Below are positions 2,176-62,387 of a stretch of DNA of 64,000 nucleotides, piece by piece. The stretch's first letter is position 1, and each line of letters begins with the position of its first letter. The position numbers were made by a program, and so were the translations under genes. The stretch is from positions 6,374,641 to 6,438,640 of the forward strand of contig NC_092705.1 in NCBI RefSeq assembly GCF_964275005.1, in the 5' to 3' direction. This DNA comes from Diadema setosum (taxonomy: Eukaryota > Echinodermata > Echinoidea > Diadematoida > Diadematidae). The notes under the pieces are model-generated. The model was given only the letters and a program-made list of their open reading frames with translations. It ran no database searches and was not told where the DNA came from.

Positions 2176-5100
2176 CTGGAAAATAGCGGAGAGAATTTCG
2201 CAGTAAGTGCTACACTTAATCTTTGGTAACGTGTTCGGCAGATGACATAAAAATCACACACACACAACGCTAACATGAAACAAAAAGGCAATAAAAACAC
2301 AATTCCAATAAAATGTGGGTCCCACCTTTTATTTTACAATCGCTTTGTTTTACTTTATTTTTTGATGTCTCAGCCATTCCAAAACCGATTTTCATCAAAT
2401 AAACTTCGAATTCCTCTTAGAAAGGTACGCTTTGTACTATTTTACAAACGGTTTCTTGATAATTCTCACCTCTACCAATACTATACCATCCCTTTAAGCT
2501 AGGATGTACAAACATTTCTATACGGATTTGTTAGATTTCAGTTTTGACGGGAAGATCAGCAAATGGTTTAACTAATCGTACCGCTTTTTTTCATTGCAGT
2601 AAGATGGAAGGTAAGTAAGGTGGGCTGTATGACTCGTGGGTGTCGGTCTAGTGGGATGACCCCCAAATTTCTGAGAAATACACTAAACAAGCCATAAATA
2701 TGGGTCATTAAGTAACTTTCTTTGCTCTACATCACAAATCGATGTCTGATCCTTTTAAACAAAGCAAATCATTGACAAAGTGACATTATACGAACGTGAA
2801 TAATCATATCTACGCTTGAGAATGGCATACTCTGCACATTTTCAATGTCATAGCTGCCTCATATTAAGGGCAATTTTCTGAAAAGTGGTTAGGAACTATC
2901 AATTATATTGTACCTGCATTTCCGACAGACTACATACTAACCTCCTAGCACAGGCCCAACAATACCTCCAAGTCCGTGGCTTAGCAAGACGAGTCCCACT
3001 GCCTTGCCCAAATGATCTTTCCCTACGTAATTCCAGGCAAGGACAACCTGTAGGCTGAACGTGCCGCCGCTGGAGACGCCAGCCAACGTGCAGGAGAGCG
3101 CGTACAGCCAGTACGTCGAGCTCGCCATGCACACAATGACCGTTACACCGCAGACGACCATGAAAATCATGTACACGTTCGAGGGGGACAACCGGCCCAA
3201 GTCCGGTAGAACACCGCCGCCAACTCGACCAATCGTGCTACCGATTCCGAGGAACGACATCAAGAAAGACGCCATTTGGGGTTTGATTCCACGAAGAACA
3301 ACCATGTTGGGAAGGTGACTAATGACAGCATTGTAACAAATGGCGATTATGAATTGTGAGAACATCAAGACTGATAAGCGGAAGCTGTAAGAGAGCATGG
3401 AAAGTCCAACGGCATGAAAAACTGCGGGAAGAGGGTTATTACTTTTGACCTGAGTCATTACAGATATGGCTTTGGCAACATCGCGACATTCCATAGCAAG
3501 TGACGCAGTTGCAACTTCATTGGTTGCAGTAATTTCACATGAGTGTTCATCACCTTTAGGGCATGTTTCCATCTGCGCGTATCTTGCGGTTTGTGTTTCA
3601 CTGTTGGATGGTCTTATGATCTCAACATCCATAAAGCTTGTCTCCATGCCATCTGTGATGGTCTCGTCTGTGCTTTTGCCATCATCTGTGAGGCTTTCGC
3701 TATCGCCTGCGACGCTTTCACAATTGCTTGAAAGTGAACGAGTCCCGACGTAAGCGTTTCCCTCATTGTCCATGCGTTGACACCGGTTAAACTCGTGAGT
3801 TGTGTCGTCTGCAATATCGTTCGATCCCGACACCCTCTGATAGACCGCGCCATTTGGACCGCCCTTGTCCCGCCTTACGTGCTCTGGTTGTGGATTCTCG
3901 CTTTGATTCCCAACTGGTCGTTTTCCCCACGAGTCCAACGGCCTAAGGAGGAGGCCCCCAACGACAAGGTTTCCCATAATGGCGCTGACGATCAGCATGC
4001 TGCCCTGCCAGCCATACACGTCGACAAGGAACTGGACCAGAGGTGGAAAGAGAATTATGCCGATGCCGGACCCGCCCGACGAGATACCGCGAATCGTGCT
4101 AAAGTTCTTGTCGAAGTAGTTGGCTAACGCTACGGCGTTGGCAGGGAATAACGCTCCAGCGAAAAACCCTGTATAAAAAAAAAAGAGGAACAGACCTCAT
4201 GGAATTTAACCGAGTCTAATTGACCCATGTTGTGAGTAATCATACCGTCCCCTCTAGGTAAGAGACAAAACACTCTGTTCGTCGGATAGGACATAAACAT
4301 TTAATGGAGGTCCTATGTGTGAGAGAGCCACAATTCGTGCCCGTAAAAGATCCCGCTTCATTCGTTCATCGCAAAGAGCAGGGTGCATACCCCAGTGAAG
4401 TGGTCCCGCCTCACACCCAACTGGACCCCATGGAAGACCAGCTAGTGCAGCTGAATATGGGATATCCAGCCATCTTCTCGGACAGAAAAATGAAATAAAT
4501 AAACAAAACAAACAAACAAACAAGCAGATGATGCAGTAAATAATGAAGTGACAGCGAATACATTGATGGAGATGGGAAAACGGATAGTCACACAAACACG
4601 CATTTGACCAGAAGACTAACATCTAGAGGACACAATTTTGTAGTGCTAGTGAGTGTGTGTTACATACATGCTTTCCAACGGGTTCGTTTGTTCGTTTTTG
4701 TTTTCCATCTCACAAGATGTCTAGATAACCCATATTCAGCTGCATTAGCTTGTCGTCCATAGGGTCCAGGAAGTTGTGAGTAAATGACTGGGGTGGACCA
4801 CCTCACCAGGTTATGCACCCTGTCCTTTGCGATGAATGAATGAATGAAGCGTGATCTTTTACGTGTGGCTGTGTGTGTCTCTCCCATGGGACCACCATTT
4901 TATGTCCTATCCAAGAGACAGATTATTTTGCCCCTATCATAGAGGGGATGGCATGATAACACACCACATGGGCCAGTACGAATCACCGTTGGGTTCAAAC
5001 CTGCGCCCAAACCCGAGCCATTTCGATTGAAAGACAGATACGCTAATGACTTTAATAGTCACATCGCCGCCGTATAATCCTACTTTAATCAGCACATTGA

Positions 5101-12592: not shown

Positions 12593-14198
12593 TTAAGGAG
12601 CATTCCAGACGATTTAGATAATTTCACATCAGGTAGTACATAAATCAATAGTGCATTGTACATAATCATTTGTGCAATTTATTGTGCAATTTATTGTGAT
12701 CCTTGAGCAGATTAACAGTACTCTGTGACTGTAAAACCAGCACATAACACACTGAGTAAGGATGATGACATAGGTCATGTAACGGTGTAATTTCATTAAT
12801 ATACAATAACACTTGCTTAACAGGTTCACCTGTTGCAACTGATTGACAGATTGCCTTACTCTGGCGTAAATAAGCACCGAGTAAGTAGTGTGTTCGTATC
12901 TTTGTACCCAGCAATTCATGGTTGTTCAAATGCAAAATATCTGAAAATCATCTGGTATCCTTTTACGTTGTTTGGCGTGACGATCCTCAGCCTGCTTCTC
13001 ATGTTACCGCTAAAGCGAGAGAGGCTATAAAGCAAAGTATATATTGTATCAAACATAACACAATTCCTCCAAGCCATCTGTCTATAGTGAAGCTTTGCTT
13101 TTGAAGACGATTCCCTCCATTCCAATTGAGATTTTCTTATATCTGTATTGTTTAATGCGTCCTTAATGAGTGCATAATTCAACATGAAATTATGTGATGC
13201 GTTTGCTTTACATTAAATGCTTACCTATATAGAGCTGTATCTATTGATTAATACACATAATGTATTTGACATATATTATGCCTACACTTTGTTAAATCTT
13301 GCTATCATACGTTATATTGAAAACGGAATGCAGAAATAAACTAGACTGAATCTTCAGGTTCCTTTTCTTGCAATAACTACAGAAGGCGTTTGTCGGAGGC
13401 TTTTACATAGAGCATCTTAAATTATGCTATCACAAGTCTGAGGAGAAGATAAAAAATATAATTGATCCCCACGAATGATATTCGGTCCAGATAGCAATGT
13501 TTTTTAATTGTTTGTTTTTTACACTAATCTTATATACATGCACTTTCTATTGGCAAGGTTAGTGATCATGATCAAAAGAAATACCGGTATGACGCGATTG
13601 CGATAGCAGACCTTATGGTCCATGTATGTAAGGGTAGTTTATCTACCTTGTGAGCCTGTTGACAACATGCGGTGCTGAAAGACAAGAGGTATATGCATGA
13701 TCTTCAACAGCTACTCCATCAACCAATCGACTATAGTATACATTACATACCTGCCAACATTTCGAGATGAAATATCTTACTCGTGGATTGCAAAAATCTT
13801 ATTTTATATGCAAACTGAAGTTAAAGATCTTACTTTCGGTCAAATCTTCAGAAAATACACATGAAAGGTATATCTAAATATTTTCTAAAAATCTGATTTC
13901 TCTGACAGAAAATCTGATTTTGCTATTTTTAACGTAAAAAATCTTACTGAATCTGATAAAATCTTACTAGTTGGCAAGTATGACATTAGCATGATTAGTC
14001 AGGACACCAGTAAATAAAGTTGCGGTTAAATGATGCACGCTGTAGGTCTGATACACTTATATAAATTACTTGGCTGTAAGGTCTTCCTTATACTGTTCGA
14101 CTATGTAGTAACTTTATCAATCAAGGTCAAATTTAACACCGGAGTTCACTGCACTCTCCCTGAGAAAGGAACATGGAAAACACAATGAATTATCTTAA

Positions 14199-17939: not shown

Positions 17940-17972
17940 GACCAGCCAGGGAGGTCACCTCCCTGGACCAGC
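17940..17972. mobile_element. Ultra-short hairpin insertion 1 (19 nt) with 7-bp duplication
   Basis: Insert 17947-17965 is CAGGGAGGTCACCTCCCTG: 9-bp perfect arms and a 1-nt loop. Exactly GACCAGC lies on both sides (17940-17946, 17966-17972). Confidence 0.75.
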
Positions 17973-18223
17973 CCGAACGCGAAAAATGTGTGAAGGAGCA
18001 CCCCGGGGTTAGAGGCCAGACTACTCCCACCTAAAACGGCATACAAAGGAATGTACACTGGTCTTCCCTCGCCTTGAAACCCCAAACAAAGAACTGAACA
18101 CAATACACGGATAAAAAACAAGTCTCACGCAAAGACGCAAACCATTGTACTAGTATTAGTACTTTAGGGAGGAATGATTATTTATCTCATTTCCCATGAG
18201 CGCACTCAATCTTCGCTCTATAC

Positions 18224-18267
18224 ATGAAACCAGGGAGGTGGAAGAGAGAACACCTCCCTGATGAAAC
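18224..18267. mobile_element. Ultra-short hairpin insertion 2 (30 nt) with 7-bp duplication
   Basis: Insert 18231-18260: arm CAGGGAGGTG, loop GAAGAGAGAA, arm CACCTCCCTG. Flanked by ATGAAAC (18224-18230 and 18261-18267). Confidence 0.8.
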
Positions 18268-24126: not shown

Positions 24127-24753
24127 CTATTATACATAATTACTAAAACCTGTCTAGAGCACACGTCCTCAACACGCCTGCATGGAAGAAAGATTCGGTT
24201 TACCGTGGATATGCTTTTGAAATTGGGATTGAGATTTATTTGGTTGGTTTGATTCTGTATTTCGAAGGACTTTGAATTATTTCTGCTCCATCAGTAAATA
24301 CTAATTTATATTTCACAGCATTTTTTCTTTCAAAATAAAGTTCCTGAACAGGGGGAGGCAAATGTAATTGTACAGGATTTTCAACAGTGCTCAAAATAAA
24401 AATAGGTCTACGTAAATAAACTTGAGTTGATATTGCATTGAGGGAACTAACATTCATGAAGATGTCACTAATAACAGCGATATAGAAAGTGCAGATGGCC
24501 GTTATAAAGCATACAGCTTGAAGGAGTGGCCAGCCTGTAGTGACGTAGGCCTACAAGATTGATGGATGTATGAATCGTAAGTGCTACTTGCCTTGAATTA
24601 CTGTAATGTAGTAAAGTGCATGTGGTGCTTTTATAGTGTGCACACATGCGCTAGTGAGGATACACTGGGGCATAAACGATAAAATCATGACCAGCATTAG
24701 TCATTACAAAATAAGTCTAATATTGCGACAAACAGTAATGCTTTAAGATTGGT

Positions 24754-25320
24754 TTAAAGGGAAGATAAACCCCAAGAGCAATGTGGATTGAGTGAAAGCA
24801 ACAACATTAGTAGAACACATCAGTGAAAGTTTGAAGAAAATCGGACAATCGATGCAAAAGTTATGAATTTTTAAAGTTTTGATGTTGGAACCGCTGGATG
24901 AGGAGACTACTAGAGGTTATGACGTATGAGTGGACAACAATACCAAGAAAATATAAAGAAAATTCTGCAAAAATCCATTTTTTATGAAAATTACAAATTC
25001 CATCAACTTGATGTTGACATATGTTAAGGGTAGCAATTATTCCCCCTGCTTTCTGAAAGCGGTTGGTCCATTGCTCTTTCATAATTCTAGAAAAGTGAAT
25101 TTTTGTTGAATTTCCTTTATATTTTCTTTGTATTGTTGTCCACTCATACGTCATATCCTCTAGTAGTCTCCTCCTCCAGCGGTTCCAACACCAAAACTTT
25201 AAAAATTCATAACTTTTGCATCGATTGTCCGATTTTCCTCAAACTTTCACTGATGTGTTCTACTAATGTTGCTGCTTTCACTCAATCCACATTGTTCTTT
25301 GGGTTTATCTTCCCTTTAAA
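24754..25320. mobile_element. Family A palindromic element, full copy
   Basis: Ends TTTAAAGGGAAGATAAACCC and GGGTTTATCTTCCCTTTAAA. The two arms carry the AATGTGGATTGAGTGAAAGC block and its complement. Open frames on both strands are mirror artefacts. Confidence 0.85.
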
Positions 25321-26422: not shown

Positions 26423-27407
26423 TCAAGACCCAACATTTTACCTCCTTTTGCAGGGATGGCATTTCAAGATATCTGGACTATGATGTCCAATTGATTTATG
26501 AGCTAATGAAAGCTTTGGATTGCTTAAATGAAAATCATGAGAAGGACGAGTTCGGTATGTTATGAATACATTCATTAGTAATCAAATAATCTTGAAAAAC
26601 TAGTAAATTGTGAACATATTTATATACACACATATTATAGCCACATGGTACAAGTGAATTTCATGAGTCTTTAGAGTTGTGAAAGGATGTAATAAAGGAT
26701 CAGTGTGAGCAAAATAGGACAGCTGAGTGCAGATTCGACGGGCTTTTTTTCTGTAGAAGAAATAATGAATTGATTTTCACTTTGATGCAATTTTCCCATA
26801 CAATGTTACAGCAATATAATATAATCATGGCACTAACAAGGCATTACACAACATTATAAAATATTTCTTATTCATTATGTCCTTCAATCGCCGAAGAAAA
26901 CCAGTTGCTCTAGATATCAAGATTATTACATTTTGTACATTGATGATCATATAAACTATTCCAGGTCAAATGAGAATCAAGAGTGACTCTTAAAAACTTA
27001 GGTGGTTGTTTTGTGAAAGCAGAAGTCATCGAGTCGTTATTTGAGACTCTGAAAATGATAATCAATGAAATGATGATGACAATAATAATGATAACAAATA
27101 TACAATTACGTGTAAGTTGATGATATATAACTTATAAAGTATTACAGAGAGAGAAAGATAGTAGATATAGATATATACGGGTATATAGAAATAAACGTTT
27201 TATAGTATTTTGTGTTTGACTTACACTTTTTCATGATATATTCCACGTGGTATACAAAGGCATCGTGTCCAATGATTTCATCGAATTGGCGACCTCAATC
27301 TTGCATCGATAAGCGTGGGAGATGTACTGTCACTCGGCTCAGTTCTTTGAACCCTATTTATCTAGGTTCGTTAGCAATGAATGGGACACGTCAAGGCATT
27401 ATATGCT

Positions 27408-27957
27408 TAAAGGACAAGTTCACCTTCATTAACATAAGGATTGAGAGAATGTAGCAATATTAGTAGAACACATCATTGAGAGTTTGAGGAAAATCGGACA
27501 ATCCGTTCAAAAGTTATGAATTTTTGAAGTTTTTGTGCAGTCACCGCTGGATGAGAAGACTACTGCAGTGTATGATGGCACATGCGTACAACAATATAAG
27601 GAAAATATAAAGAGAATTTCACAAAATTTCATCTTTTGAAAAAAGTACACATTCCCTTGACTAGTTACTGACATATTCCCATTGCCTTTAGAAAGAGGCA
27701 AGTCAAGTGCTCTTTTATAATGCGAAAAAAAGTGAAAATATATTGAATTTTCTTTACATTTTCTTTATACTGTTGTACTCATATGACATCACGAGCCTTA
27801 GTAGTCTCCTCATCCAGCGGTTCCAACACAAAAGTTGTAAAAATTCATAACTTTTGCATCGATTGTCCAATTTTCCTCAAACTTTCACTGATGTGTTCCA
27901 CTAATATTGCTACTTTCTCTCAATCCTTATGTTAATGAAGGTTAACTTGTCCTTTAA
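27408..27957. mobile_element. Family A palindromic element, second subtype
   Basis: Ends TTAAAGGACAAGTTCACCTT and AAGGTTAACTTGTCCTTTAA. Shares GTAGAACACATCA and AAAGTTATGAATTTTT with the first subtype but differs at the termini. Confidence 0.85.
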
Positions 27958-28481
27958 CCATTCAAAGACCGCAACTTTGACCTATACCAACTATCCCATT
28001 GTTGAGCATACAGTCAGACCCGTTTATAGCGGCCACACACGGGAGACGGGAAAAAGTGGCGGTTGCAAACAGGTGGCCGCGAGAGAGTGGGGTCTTTAAC
28101 AAATCTCGCTTTCTCTCGAAGAGAATTGTTTTTAATGGCAGTATGGCCACTAAAAACAATGGGAGAGCTCGCACATAGAGTAGTATGCATTTACTGCCAC
28201 TACATACCATGTTCAGTCAAGTTCGTGTTCAGTGTGTTTGGAACATTTCTTCGAAAATCTTGGATTTTTCCATCAAGTCCTATATGAAGCTGAGTCGTAT
28301 TTACTCATAAAGGAAAATTAAAAAAAAAGTAGTTCATAGAACCATTTTATAAAACAAATAATGCACAGGTTTAAGTTCATGATGTAAGTGGAGATGCAGC
28401 TCACTCTCGGATATTCACAATGTCATGCAACATGCACTCTACTGTGTCTCGGTATACATGTTGGTCTATAACCTCGAGTGC

Positions 28482-28520
28482 GTTGCACCAGGGAGGTGAG
28501 TCTCATCTCTCTGGTTGCAT
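28482..28520. mobile_element. Ultra-short hairpin insertion 3 (25 nt), slightly decayed
   Basis: Insert 28489-28513 starts CAGGGAGGTG and ends CTCTCTG. Flanks are GTTGCAC and GTTGCAT, 6 of 7 identical. Confidence 0.6.
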
Positions 28521-29190: not shown

Positions 29191-29234
29191 GTTGAACCAG
29201 GGAGGTGGGAAGATAACCACCTCCCTGGTTGAAC
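29191..29234. mobile_element. Ultra-short hairpin insertion 4 (30 nt) with 7-bp duplication
   Basis: Insert 29198-29227: arm CAGGGAGGTG, loop GGAAGATAAC, arm CACCTCCCTG. Exact GTTGAAC on both sides (29191-29197, 29228-29234). A degenerate relative follows at 29238-29260. Confidence 0.8.
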
Positions 29235-29490
29235 GTCTGACCAGGAAAGGGAACCTCCCTGAACGTCGACCGTCTTGCCCGAACCACAGCGGGGAGAGCT
29301 CTTGTTTGATGACGTAATAACAAAGGTCTATTTGCATAATAATATGTAGCACAGAAACTGACGATTTGGTGGTATATAATTATTAAGAACATGTGAAACT
29401 TAAACACTGCCAAAGTCAAGAAATGCCGGCTTTGACCACCATTCCATATATTTTGTCTGACCACTCACATTCTTCGTTGAACTCAATTCC

Positions 29491-29997: not shown

Positions 29998-30201
29998 CGT
30001 GCGCATGGCAGATTGTCGTTAGCGCGCTTCCCTGCGCCTGGCAGATTGTCGTTACAGTGTGGGAGTGCGCATGGCAGATTGTCGTTAGGGTGTGGGAGTG
30101 CGCGTAGGGTTAACAACATTCTGCCATGCGCACGGAAGTGCTCTAACAACAATCTGCCATGCGCACGGAAGCGCGCTAACGACAATCTGCCATGCGCACG
30201 A
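29998..30201. mobile_element. Foldback element of 34-36 bp tandem units
   Basis: Three forward units containing GCGCATGGCAGATTGTCGTT, then three inverted units ending AATCTGCCATGCGCAC. The outermost arms (29998-30031 and 30168-30201) are perfectly complementary over about 34 bp. Confidence 0.85.
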
Positions 30202-43210: not shown

Positions 43211-46200
43211 GTAGGTATTTTATCATCACATCATGGATGGGGAAAGAACGGGGACACTGGCACAGCGGTGTCCCTCGCTTGACCCAGATTTGTGGAAATA
43301 TGTTATTTCGACTGCAGTTCTTGCTTTCCAAGGCTGGATTCCGAAGACTCGTCTGTGTGGTATGCCCCAAGCCAAGCTGGCTGAACCATATTTTGTGCGC
43401 GTGTATGCCATGCCTGCGTTGAGACTGTCTTGTATGATACCATGGCATTGGTGTTGGTGCTAGCAGGGAGATGTAGTACACTAGTAATAGAGCTAAGAGA
43501 ATGATCTTTCAGCATGTTCAGTGCTCAAATGTATGCATTTTCTGTTTGTTTCCGTGAATACTTTTTTTATGTTTTTTTTTTCTTTTGTGTCAAATTGAGT
43601 ATAGCACTATACAATCTATGTGAATTGTGGATTCATTGCATGGCTTACCACAAAAGTTAAATTGGATGTAAATATGCTCATATACTCACACTGTATACCT
43701 CTTGTAACACATTTATTTACATTTTCAAAACTTATGTGGTATATGTCTGTTGCACTGTATGATTGGTCTCAATTCCCTTTGTGCATTCAACTAAAACTCT
43801 GTACAACAGGATTATTCAAAAGGAATTTAATTACCATACTTCTCAATCTATTTACATACAAATCATTAATCCTGATTCACATTAATATATCATAACTTAT
43901 TACAGGTACAAAATTGTCATTATAATTATTCAAACTAAATAGATTGTTTCATGGTATAGAAGGCAGATGTGCAGGGAAAATGCGGCAAAAGTTTGCAGCA
44001 GACTTGAAACTTACTGATCAAAGGGCAAATCCAGTCCAAACAAGTTGGTCTGATATAAAAAGAGTAAAATCTTACAAGTTCAATGGTAAAAATTTGAAAT
44101 CTGATGAAAAATAAGGAAGTTATGACATTCTGAAGTTTTGCTAATTTCTGCAAAACAGTTCTCGTACAGTGGATATGAATATGCAAATGAGTGAGCTAAC
44201 CATATCATAACCTCACAATTTTCCATTAAAGGGAAGGTAAACCCAAAGAGCAATGTGGATTGAGTGAAAGCAGCAACATTAGTAGAACACATCAGTGAAA
44301 GTTTGAGGAAAATCGAACAATCGATGCAAAAGTTATGAATTTTTAAAGTTTTGGTGTTGGAACCGCTGGATGAGGAGACTACTAGAGGATATGACGTATG
44401 AGTGGACAACAATACAAAGAAAATATAAAGGAAATTCAACAAAAATTCACTTTTCTAGAATTATGAAAGAGCAATGGACCAACCTCTTTCAGAAAGCAGA
44501 GGGAATAATTGCTACCCTTTACATTTGTCAATATCAAGTTGATGGAATTTGTAATTTTCGTGAAAAATGGATTTTTGTAGAATTTTCTTTATGTTTTCTT
44601 GGTATTGTTGTCCACTCATACGTCATAACCTCTAGTAGTCTCCTCATCCAGCGGTTCCATCACCAAAACTTTAAAAATTCATAACTTTTGCATCGATTGT
44701 CCGATTTTCTTCAAACTTTCACTGATGTGTTCTACTAATGTTGCTGCTTTCACTCAATCCACATTGCTTTTGGGGTTTATCTTCCCTTTAATCGTGTACA
44801 AAAAATGATGAAAATTCAATATTTCTGTCATTGAAGTTTAAAACATGATGTTTTTCCTGGTTGAATAACTTCAGAATAGTAATTAGTTAGATATACCAGG
44901 ATTTGAGCCTCGGGCATACTTGCATTTGAATGAAAAACTGGAATTTTCAAAATTTTATGTTCAAACTATATATGGCAAGTTGTGAGGGTATGACATGCTT
45001 ACTTTGCCATTTGCATATGCATATTTACTGTTCAAGAACTGTTTCCTTAAAAATTAGTGAAAATTCAAAATGTCCTAACTTCCTTATTTTTCACCCGATT
45101 TCGTCGAAATTGTACAGTTGAACTCATAGTATTTTACTCTTTCTTATCAGACTAACTTTTATTTTGACTGGATTTCCCCTTTAAGTATTGCTGTCATCGC
45201 ATGCACAGAATGACTGATTCATATGATCGAGGGGGAATTCTCATTGACCGAGCTACAATGGTTTGATGAGCTGAAGGCCCTATTAGTGCAATAGACCAAA
45301 AGTCTGATTGACTAAGTTATTTTACAAATCATAGTAAAAGACTAATCTTGTGTGTCTATAGCCGCTAATAGCTACACACGGTACACAAATCAGATGAGAT
45401 CATTAAAAAAAAATATGATGCAGATAATAAAAGCATCATTCGGAATGCTTGCCTGGCCATTCCACATGAGCCCATACCCCCTTACACTCCCACACCACAC
45501 ACCTGCTTTAACCCTTTGAGTGCCCTCACACTTTGTTGAACTTGGCCATGCTTTTTTCATCAGCTTTCGGTAAGCTCTCCAAACTTGACCTAGTTTCAGA
45601 TTATAGAGCCCACTTGGGCGTAGCAATAGTGTCACAATGGTGATGTAATAAGGATTAGGGGGGATTTGGGGGTTAGGTAATTTTTTCATTGACAATTCAG
45701 TCCTTCAAGTGGAAGGCTATGGTGATGTAATGGGGATTATTGGGGGGGGGGGGGGCTAGGGGGTTAGGTAATTTTGTCATTGACAATAAGTTTCCAAACA
45801 ATTCTTGTGCCACTTGACTGGAGAAAGCACTCCAGCATGCCTGCCAATCTGCATAGAAAGGCACAGTATTGGATGAGGTGAGAATTCAGCTTTTAACTGG
45901 TTTTGTTTTGTTTGTTTTTTTGCAAGATACTTTGAAACCACTTTCTAAAATGTTAAAGAGCATACAATTCTAAGAGGAATTCAAAATTCATCTGATGAAA
46001 ATAAGTTTTGAAATGGCAGAGATGTCCAAAAACAAAGTAAAACAGAATAATCATAATAAAAGTGGTTCCCACCTTTTATTAGAACTGCCTTGTTTTGAAT
46101 ATCTCAGCCATTTCAAAACCAATTTGCATCAAATAAACTTTGAATTCCTCTTAGAATTATGTGCTCTTTCATATTTCATAAGTGTCTCGTGTTATCTAAA

Positions 46201-59107: not shown

Positions 59108-59152
59108 GTTTCAGCATGGAGCTACTAACTGTTAGTAGCTCCATGGTTTCAG
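59108..59152. mobile_element. Ultra-short hairpin insertion 5 (31 nt), second stem type
   Basis: Insert 59115-59145: perfect 15-bp arms CATGGAGCTACTAAC / GTTAGTAGCTCCATG with a 1-nt loop. Exact GTTTCAG on both sides (59108-59114, 59146-59152). A related hairpin at 19308-19335 lacks recognisable duplications. Confidence 0.75.
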
Positions 59153-61524
59153 TTTGGACAAGCTATGTGTTCAATCTTCCCACAAACAAGACAGCTAGGG
59201 TAGTGGTCATGCTCAGAAGGAAACACCCACATGGAGGCTGTGATACTGTAGGTGCAATTATGTACCTCAGTTTGGTTTTGAGGTCAATGCCCTCAACACA
59301 AGAAACATGATCAAACCCATTCAGGTGCAGGGGTGACTGAAAACATGCGGGAGCATGGATGACAATTTTGGCAAGATCCATGTTGGACTCCTGAGCATTT
59401 TTAGTCTCCTAGTTTTTAATAATGAGAGCCTAAAAAGTAAGGAGGAGACTGAGGATCAACTCTGTTTTTTTTTTTATTTGCTTTCACTTTTATTGATTCT
59501 CTTCCAGGATCAAATGCAGAAAGCTCATTGATTTGGATCCATTCCCCCAACCCCTTCAAGTGTCCAATCTCCTCCAGGAATGTTATGGTTGGCAAATCTC
59601 TAATAATTGTGCTTGCTTGTCCATCACTTTCTTGCTTCATGTATTACCTGCCCACCCCACCTTTCTCCTTCCAATTTGCATCACCTGGTCTGCTGTATAG
59701 GGTACAAGTAATAGTCTATATCCTCAGAACATTGCGGGGGGGGGGGGGGGGGGGGGAGGTAGCTATGTATCTGATACCATATTCTGTCCAATGTGATACC
59801 GGTACTTCATTTTTTTCTCACATTATGAACTGTTGTAGTGCCTAGTCAAGTCCCAAAATTTTCAGAGAAATTATCCACAACAACACCACCACCAACAGCA
59901 ACAACAAACACACATCTGAGATACAATTTATGTTTTACAACTTTGTTGGTTTGTATGTTGTATTTTTGCCATATAAATCTCACTTGTCAACTTTCAAATG
60001 TTTGACCATATGGCGGTTTCAAATTGTGCATGCTAGGATTAATCCTCTACCTGTAACTAGGGGATTCCCCATACTAGACCATAATTATGCACTTCTAATC
60101 TAAGTTCCTAGCTGAGAAACAAAAACAACAACAAAAAAGTAAAGTTTTGAGGGCATGCAAACTCTTTACATGGTTTTTTTTATGTTAGTATCTGTAGTAC
60201 AGAAACAAAGTGTTTTTATTGAAGCTGTTTTTATGTTTTTTGTTTTGTTTCATTTGTGTGTGTTTGTGTGTGTGTGTCAGCCAAATACTCAATGAAATGC
60301 ATGAATTGCAAAGAGTTTGCTGAGAAATGAAAGGACTACTCTGAAATCGATGTCTGCCAGTGAAAACTGAGAGGGACTGGACTCACCAGCAATTATGCCT
60401 GCTAGTGCCCTGTTTGGGGTGCCATGATCACCCCAAACAATACCGGGTGGGATGACAGTGTGTAATGGATAGTATCGCTGGAGAGCCTGATCAATAGTGC
60501 GAGACTTGCCTTTGCACTCCCCTTATTGTTGTTGTGCTCTCTGCTTTTTCATTCTTTCATTCATTCATTTGTTCACTTTATAGTCAGTCAGTCAGCAAGT
60601 TTCTCATGCAGTCATTTAAATACCCTAAACCTGCTGCTTGCTATGTGGCAAATTCCAAGAAACAAATTGTATTATTTCTATTGATGTCAGTTGTTCATTT
60701 TGTATCCTGTTGGAATGTCTGTCTCTTTATTTCCTTATTGATTTTATCTGGGGTTTCTAGTTTGATATCCCTTCCTAGAAGAAGCTGCCACAAAGTTTAA
60801 CAGTTTGTGCACTGTGAGAGACCCCATCTTAATTTCTTTTTTTTTTTTTCATTGAATACTCCAGCTCCATTATTGTTTTTATTAGCCTATAAAAGGGAAA
60901 GGAAGTTGCCAAAATGTAACCCCCCCCCCCAGAAATATTCTGATGCAATTTATTGATCACCTGAATGGATGTGGATATTCTTACCAGACAGAGTTAAGTC
61001 TAATTATGATGTTTCTGTCAAAGTAAGATGATGCACTGTATCCTGAAAGCGGTTGCTCTGTCCAGTCAATACTTGCACACAATCTGTATGTTTTCAGTCT
61101 AATCTGTATGTTTTCAGTCTTACTGTAATTGGCCAAGGAATGTAGAGTTACACATGTGTAGGTACTTATTGCTAAAAAGGCTGTTATTTTTACAAACAGA
61201 TAGTTTCACACAGATATGAAGCGGTCATAAACACATTTGCAAGATGCTGTTTTTGTGATTTGACAACGAAACTGTTGTAATTGCACTAATGCCTGTTCGT
61301 TCAAGATTGGTGGTGATATTTTTTCATGTGACATTGTTAAATTCATGGCCCAACAGTGATTCTCAAGAATCAAAAAATTAAACCTATGAGAAAATAACAG
61401 AGGCTCTTTTATATTATTCTGGTGGACTCCATTTTCTCTATAGGGCCTACTGTAAATTGACTGTTGGCATCATTGCTCTCAAAAAATAAACCACGCTAGA
61501 GTGCTTCTGTAATGATTTTCAGTC

Positions 61525-62096
61525 TAAAGGACAAGTTCACCTTCATAAACATAAGGATTGAGAGAATGCAGCAATATTGGTAGAACACATCAGTGAAAGT
61601 TTGAGGAAAATAAGACAATCGATGCAAAAGTTATGAATTTTTAACATTTTTGTGTTGGAACCGCTGGATGAGGAGACTACTAAGGCTCGTGATGTCATAT
61701 GAGTACAACAGTATAAAGAAAATGTAAAGAAAATTCAACATATTTTCACTTTTTTCGCATAATAAAAGAGCACTTGACTCGCCTCTTTCTAAAGAAAATG
61801 GGAGTAATATTACCCATAACATATGTCAGTAACGAGTCAAGGGAATGTGTACTTTTTTTCAAAAGATGAAATTTTGTGAAATTCTCTATATATTTTCCTT
61901 ATATTGTTGTACGCATGTGACATCATATACATTGTACTGCAGTAGTCTTCTCATCCAGCGGTGACTGCACAAAAACTTCAAAAATTCATAACTTTTGAAC
62001 GGATTGTCCGATTTTCCTCAAACTTTCAATGATGTGTTCTACTAATATTGCTACATTCTCTCAATCCTTATGTTAATGAAGGTGAACTTGTCCTTT
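61525..62096. mobile_element. Family A palindromic element, second subtype, in PRKX-like intron 2
   Basis: Ends TAAAGGACAAGTTCACCTT and AAGGTGAACTTGTCCTTT. Matches the copy at 27408 throughout. Confidence 0.85.
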
Positions 62097-62346
62097 GTTA
62101 AAGTATCCATAAAACCACAATATTGAGTTCCTTATTCCAGTAACATTGGTAACGCTTTGTGTGGCCAGGCGCTAATACTGTATCTTGCCTATCATTTATC
62201 AGTAAACCATCCAAACTTGACCGAGATGCAGTTGTGGATTAGCGAGCCTATTCAGGAGGTGTAGCAATCGTCAGTTGAGATTAAGTTGCCTCCAAACCCA
62301 TAGTGTTCGAGACAACTTAACGCCCTTCTCATTCTCAACAGACGCA

Positions 62347-62387
62347 ATGTACCCAGGGAGGGGAAGAGGCCACCTCCCTGATGTACC
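62347..62387. mobile_element. Ultra-short hairpin insertion 6 (27 nt) with 7-bp duplication
   Basis: Insert 62354-62380: CAGGGAGGGG, short loop, CACCTCCCTG. Exact ATGTACC on both sides (62347-62353, 62381-62387). It lies in a dispersed repeat whose relatives at about 45625 and 45725 have no hairpin. Confidence 0.8.

Follow-up and report, generated by a model that had tools for sequence, protein, structure and literature searches.

The question raised by this locus is what left a series of very short hairpins, each set between matching or nearly matching 7-mers, in the genome of the sea urchin Diadema setosum. The stretch of DNA analysed, referred to throughout as the window, is 64,000 nucleotides long (contig NC_092705.1; C22:6374641-6438640 of the assembly searched). 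Six short hairpin inserts with shared CA...TG ends can be read directly from it, and all six had been picked out in a preliminary description of the sequence; the 7-mers on either side are exact repeats in five of the six and agree at 6/7 positions in the remaining one. They are set out below, named as the excision scars which we shall argue they very probably are, together with one uncertain neighbour.

17940 to 17972, unstranded: scar 1, comprising GACCAGC (17940-17946), the 19-nt hairpin remnant CAGGGAGGTCACCTCCCTG (17947-17965) and GACCAGC (17966-17972)
18224 to 18267, unstranded: scar 2, comprising ATGAAAC, a 30-nt remnant (18231-18260) and ATGAAAC
28482 to 28520, unstranded: scar 3, aged, comprising GTTGCAC, a 25-nt remnant (28489-28513) and GTTGCAT (6/7)
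29191 to 29234, unstranded: scar 4, comprising GTTGAAC, a 30-nt remnant (29198-29227) and GTTGAAC
29232 to 29268, unstranded: possible older one-sided scar adjoining scar 4, uncertain, a single case read from the sequence without a control; AACGTCT (29232-29238), 23 nt ending ACCTCCCTG (29239-29261) and AACGTCG (29262-29268), flanks 6/7
59108 to 59152, unstranded: scar of a second (CATGGAG) family, comprising GTTTCAG, the 31-nt remnant CATGGAGCTACTAACTGTTAGTAGCTCCATG (59115-59145) and GTTTCAG
62347 to 62387, unstranded: scar 5, of the CAGGGAG family, comprising ATGTACC, a 27-nt remnant (62354-62380) and ATGTACC

Short inserts in the window

The preliminary description held that chance would rarely place exact 7-mers against a hairpin, and a scan of the window bears this out. 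Exact 7-mer repeats bounding terminal inverted repeats, sought over lengths of 16-4000 nt, were found six times, four of these being inserts listed above and two being artefacts of G/C runs, while the counts in five random first-order sequences were 0, 1, 0, 0 and 0. Within that size range, whose upper limit was 4,000 nt, all the convincing repeat-bounded inserts measured 19-31 nt. The sequence CAGGGAGGT, at one mismatch or fewer, has 23 matches in the window, as against a mean of 7.7 and a maximum of 17 among 100 shuffles. The 19-mer of scar 1 (or its complement) recurs at two further loci, L040 and L059, with different target duplications, and the left side of scar 2 is made up of 19 nt of an inferred 20-nt tail, CAGGGAGGTGGAAGAGAGAC, discussed below.

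The window holds several other features. A 237-nt element (13746-13982) has terminal repeats CATACCTGCCAAC/CATACTTGCCAAC, close to the CATACCTGTCAAC of zebrafish Pdre2, and an exact flanking repeat of only 6 bp, ACATTA. Two adjoining 33-bp tandem arrays, with units that are partly the inverse of one another, lie at 29999-30200, and there are four copies of a large element whose inverted-repeat arms measure ∼230 nt (24753-25320, 44225-44792, 27401-27961 and 61524-62098). The clearest protein is a monocarboxylate-transporter frame, 94% identical over its full length to a Diadema antillarum protein. Comparison with Rfam gave nothing at gathering scores, and no tRNA was found.

Flanking repeats across the genome

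The assembly comprises 912,680,840 bases in 102 contigs. The pattern CAGGGAGGT-N(0-30)-ACCTCCCTG occurs at 3,615 places in it, compared with one place for the reversed control, and a second family, CATGGAG...CTCCATG, occurs at 1,554 places, compared with 56 for its control. The flanks of the first 50 listed of the 3,615 places, an unselected sample lying wholly on contig C1, were then tabulated: exact 7-bp repeats were present at 25/50, 6/7 repeats at seven, exact 8-bp repeats at three, and neither at 15. When two copies recognised by their flanks are removed (n = 48), the corresponding numbers are 25, 6, 2 and 15, so that almost a third of unselected CAGGGAG places have neither a 6/7 nor an 8-bp repeat, a fact that weighs against the excision reading given below. 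The first 23 listed CATGGAG places, also on C1, gave 16 exact 7-bp repeats, three at 6/7 and four with neither. The 7-bp duplication is modal in both families, and 8 bp is rare.

As a control we took hairpins from viral contigs that have these arms, using the CAGGGAGGT hairpins only and leaving out the CATGGAGCTACTAAC matches there. Among 26 such hairpins, counted by hand and including some that duplicate one another, the best flank identity was 3/7 and none reached 6/7; flank identity is thus no property of hairpins with these arms. The preliminary description had proposed a genome-wide comparison of flank identity with random flanks, and the identity proves to be above random (25/50 exact as against at most 3/7 in the 26 viral hairpins). 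The inserts carry genuine 7-bp target duplications of the transposase type.

In 327,628 bases, with simple-repeat 7-mers filtered out, we surveyed hairpins 12-48 nt long that lie between exact repeats, grouping them by their end dinucleotides. Those with CA...TG ends numbered 22 with 7-bp repeats, six with 8 bp (one of these being counted in each of two repeat copies), none with 6 bp and one with 5 bp. For the 15 other end dinucleotides, surveyed at 7 bp only, there were none in eleven cases and 1, 1, 1 and 2 in the four composed of A/T only. The specificity for CA...TG ends is high. The CAGGGAG-family count in these bases is not a density, because much of the sequence was fetched for holding CAGGGAG hairpins. 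Hairpins of other CA...TG families with exact 8-bp flanking repeats were also seen (L057:9214, L110:1992 and L107:3649, the last the same in L110:1298), and these are perhaps scars of P families which duplicate 8 bp.

The target motif

The consensus of the duplicated 7-mer is the palindrome GTTNAAC. Thirty exact sites were compared with it, 25 of them on C1 and five in the window (one of the latter belonging to the second family); 108 of their 180 specified positions agree, whereas random 7-mers averaged 48.4 and never exceeded 69 in 5,000 draws. The second family on its own, represented by 16 sites with the 7-mer GTCTGTG at two of them, fits at 60/96 positions (random mean 25.8, maximum 50, again 5,000 draws).

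The terminal repeats of hAT elements often start with CAGGG, as do the urchin hairpins of the CAGGGAG family, and hAT excision scars are not known to keep terminal-repeat tails. An origin from hAT elements was considered and rejected, the modal duplication being 7 bp and not the 8 bp with motif GTNCGNAC that is described for the hAT element hobo (PMC3276498). The Drosophila P element itself also duplicates 8 bp, with motif GTCCGGAC, yet in the P-superfamily element 1360 (Hoppel/ProtoP) the duplication is most often 7 bp and the target motif is GTTNAAC, the same as found here (PMC3276498). The likeness has one qualification, in that 1360 is an element with mapped insertions and no intact copy with the urchin ends was found among the places sampled. 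Galileo, described from copies of the element where the urchin families are described from scars, has mostly 7-bp and a few 8-bp duplications and a palindromic GT...AC motif, GTANTAC (PMC4168063), which fits the urchin duplications less well (88/180, as against 108/180 for GTTNAAC). The preliminary description had taken 7 bp as a departure from the 8 bp usual for P elements. That objection does not hold for the superfamily: with 1360 at 7 bp and Galileo mostly so, a 7-bp duplication is compatible with it.

Anatomy of the hairpins

For the anatomy we used 51 places, 48 from C1 and three from the window. Insert length was 18-37 nt at 49 of them, the search pattern itself permitting 18-48 nt only. 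CA...TG terminal remnants are present, and the bound on their length comes from the scars, under the 48-nt ceiling of the pattern. Among the 51 places there are 47 different hairpins; the repeated ones are a 19-mer at three places, a 25-mer at two and a 27-mer in two tandem copies. The sequences can be described as the joining of two tails, each a prefix of one of four inferred tails: CAGGGAGGTGGAAGAGAGAC (20 nt), CAGGGAGGTGGGAAGAGA (18 nt), CAGGGAGGTGGAAAGAGA (18 nt) and CAGGGAGGTGAGAC (14 nt). Measured against these, two tail prefixes are joined without filler at 26/51 places, with 1-4 nt of filler at 20/51 and with at least 5 nt at 5/51, filler-bearing joins thus making up 25/51. Since these scars were themselves the main source of the inferred tails, the tally describes them and does not test the scheme independently. 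The whole 20-nt tail is kept at 12 of 20 fetched loci of a terminal 17-mer (seven independent sites as judged by flank), after which the sequences differ.

This arrangement is that of a known excision product. The P transposase makes an unusual cut with a 17-nt stagger (PMC7776569), and the junctions left by excision of Drosophila P{wa} have the 8-bp target duplication on either side and between the two copies at most 17 nt from each of the CA...TG terminal repeats, joined by microhomology or 1-15 nt of filler, some junctions being one-sided (PMC2895639, Table 1). The urchin inserts share the duplications and the CA...TG ends; judged by the inferred tails they would also share the remnants of both terminal repeats and the filler-bearing joins, and possibly the one-sided products. 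They differ in having 7 bp (rarely 8) and inferred tails of 14, 18 and 20 nt, where Drosophila has 8 bp and 17 nt, and in numbering thousands in a genome, where the Drosophila junctions come from a laboratory assay in recombination-deficient (spn-A) flies (PMC2895639).

We consider it highly probable that the inserts are scars left by the excision and subsequent end joining of DNA transposons of the P superfamily, which would resemble 1360/ProtoP in target motif and in the length of the duplication and have a stagger of ∼14-20 nt; the weight of this reading lies in the duplications, the motif and the existence of two families. On such a scheme a P-superfamily transposon would enter a GTTNAAC-like site, of which 7 bp (rarely 8) would be duplicated. 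When it left, the transposase would cut one strand at the end of the element and the other ∼14-20 nt inside, so that the tips of both terminal repeats would remain on the chromosome as single-stranded tails, to be sealed by end joining with short overlaps or filler. Because the tails are mutual inverted repeats, the scar would be a CA...TG palindrome between two target duplications. We infer a P-superfamily transposase as the maker of these scars, the staggered cut and the end joining; what we observed is the anatomy, the length and motif of the duplication, two empty sites and the P transposase genes.

One-sided products may also be present. A candidate at L055:8291 reads GTTTGAG/CAGGGAGGTGGAACTG/GTTTGAG, with an exact duplication, and a second, at L088, likewise has an exact target duplication. 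The control for these used ten words; of their 274 occurrences, four had an exact 7-mer repeat no more than 45 nt away, so either candidate alone could be due to chance and carries little weight singly.

The anatomy also bears on the proposal, made in the preliminary description, that the hairpin is itself a minimal transposon mobilised in trans, the 18-48-nt units being cut and pasted by a transposase of P or other type. The genuine target duplications, the few identical hairpins noted above and the failure to find a larger parent in the places sampled (see below) would all suit such an element. A mobile hairpin or MITE should, however, have a shared interior, and 47 different hairpins in 51 places are unlike the outcome of a self-copying hairpin. 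The filler-free joining of two inferred tail prefixes at 26/51 places and the two candidate one-sided versions with target duplications also speak against it, as does the overall likeness to P excision junctions. Furthermore, the binding sites of P transposase are internal to the 31-bp repeats (PMC7776569), and the inserts are too small to hold them; the repeated hairpins are short joins which may have recurred independently. The proposal is thus unsupported, and we keep it at a low probability, which it owes to the lack of larger elements with the same ends in our samples.

Empty sites, inherited copies and clustering

If the scars arose by insertion and excision, related sequences lacking them might be expected. 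The flanks of 39 scars, joined with the insert removed, were compared with the sequence fetched, and paralogous empty sites were found for two: L056:4718 is matched by L059:6513-6783, and L052:8302, a CATGGAG scar, by a repeat copy in the window.

4227 to 4431, + strand: repeat copy with the empty site matching L052:8302, having one GTAAGAG and no hairpin

At both empty sites the hairpin is missing and the target is present once, in whole or for the most part; the surrounding sequence shows slight differences. Another three matches across the join proved to be copies that carry the hairpin. As judged from these alignments, the two paralogous empty sites support insertion.

They also bear, together with the motif, on a second suggestion of the preliminary description, that a hairpin-processing nuclease produced the inserts with no transposon involved. 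Such an enzyme would account for the palindromic shape and for that only; it is disfavoured by target duplications that bear the motif of a known transposase and by the existence of empty sites, and we regard it as extremely improbable.

Several scars have been multiplied with the same flanks (L043 twice, L037/L062, L052/L068, L087/L095/L097/L106, L122 and the fold-back element L119/L120), and those scars must therefore have been inherited and duplicated. The target repeats at some scars have decayed. Both points count against a programmed or somatic excision in which the elements would still be present in the germline and the scars of the assembly would be somatic. This would explain thousands of scars with no parents in the samples, but we think it very unlikely. 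The fold-back element (G000:C1:40029690-40030470 and G000:C2:32686960-32687720) is an observation in its own right: both of its terminal repeats hold a CAGGGAG hairpin of the 48-nt type, with one side truncated, apparently a scar that was captured and then amplified.

The scars favoured here as products of P-like excision are not evenly spread. Among the first 50 listed places on C1, 11 of the 49 gaps were shorter than 20 kb, where 3.8 were expected, a number equalled in about 1 in 5,000 simulations; one of the short gaps arises from a tandem copy. The window contains three exact-pattern places, as against ∼0.25 predicted from the genome average, having been chosen for its scars. Local hopping of the P element over 50-150 kb is on record (PMC7776569). 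Local hopping would explain the clustering, and a preference for open chromatin would do so equally.

P transposases and the search for a parent element

For the P transposase RNase H domain the genome gave 52 matches, each of which exceeds the curated cut-off, although some are fragments of a single gene; in the control genomes, whose composition is not given, it was found in 0/14. Six of the 52 lie in open frames of 735-925 aa. Four frames were scanned. In three of them the P-type HTH, both RNase H domains (N and C) and the GTP-binding domain passed the cut-off, and one of these three had a THAP9 C-terminal match as well. In the fourth, RNase H N and the GTP-binding domain passed the cut-off and RNase H C did not reach it. 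A THAP domain was called in none of the frames, a point against the P reading. On this domain content, the genome encodes transposases of P type in long open frames.

An intact element with the ends of the scars was not found among the places sampled (terminal-word pairs, 17-mer flanks and P loci), in a search that was not exhaustive. The preliminary description had envisaged larger elements with the same termini, and none came to light in these samples. The four terminal words occur at 292+276 (568), 163+154 (317), 187+180 (367) and 338+386 (724) places, and ∼100 first-listed places of each were read by eye for opposed pairs 60 nt-20 kb apart; none of the pairs was an element. One opposed pair, 18 kb apart, was rejected as a chance pairing of a scar with a repeat copy, and two pairs 640-660 nt apart were rejected as scars within the terminal repeats of the fold-back element.

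The 20 fetched places of the terminal 17-mer likewise showed recognisable element ends in 0/20. A repeat of 6/7 or better was present at 11 of them and absent at nine, where the right boundary was set by the best match; four of these nine are copies of one repeat. At the P-transposase loci L081-L086, and in L107-L110, which flank the first pair of them, there was no CAGGGAGG or CATGGAGC end, CATGGAG occurring by itself inside L081 and L086.

The left end of one P element could be drawn. L081 and L082 share 13.6 kb at 98.5%, with the left end CACCAAAGAG, an end which depends on one boundary. Hairpins with CACCAAAGAG ends occur at seven places genome-wide, compared with one in the control, and a 7- or 8-bp repeat was found at 0/7. 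These hairpins, CACCAAAGA...TCTTTGGTG (L113-L118), are unlike the 7-bp scars, being set in the context GTG-NN-hairpin-NN-CAC with the dinucleotide repeated.

The link from scar to P transposase therefore stands on anatomy and target motif, and since no intact element with the same ends was found, we term the scars P-like and assign them to no named element. The same results leave some room for another superfamily of DNA transposons which keeps its tails, whether undescribed or with duplications of 6-7 bp, as in Dada. With no parent found in the samples, nothing ties a particular transposase to these ends; the P element with a drawn left end (CACCAAAGAG) apparently left no such scars; and the inferred tails are not of the 17-nt length. 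On the other side, duplication length and motif both agree with 1360, hobo of the hAT superfamily has 8 bp and GTNCGNAC, and P transposase genes are present in the genome. On balance, we consider such an origin unlikely.

Discussion

P-type transposons with CA...TG terminal repeats are not confined to flies. Zebrafish Pdre2/THAP9 combines a P-type transposase with such repeats, as the urchin would on our reading, while differing in its 8-bp duplication and in its terminal sequence (PMC10983969). The mechanism proposed for the urchin scars, excision with retained tails followed by end joining, is already known. What is unusual is the presence of thousands of scars from at least two families, with no parents found in the places sampled. 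The titles and abstract openings in the literature surveyed hold no account of genome-wide P scars or of these Diadema hairpins. Scars of this kind would probably escape repeat annotation, being too short and too varied to cluster.

The countable trace of cut-and-paste jumps is usually small. Here the scars are short, many are flanked by exact target duplications, and a simple pattern suffices to count them, so that past excisions, local hopping and the germline repair pathway would be readable from a single assembly. The 7-bp GTTNAAC preference of the fly element 1360 would also have its counterpart in an echinoderm.

More tentatively, P-superfamily families in Diadema may survive almost only as scars, with excision sites by the thousand and very few intact copies, if any, a view we hold as possible though less than even. 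If it is true, it would imply either a transposon which nearly always leaves without the homologous repair that would restore it, or a hypermobile family now extinct. In either case the scars would be a countable record of its jumps, with a clustering that fits local hopping.
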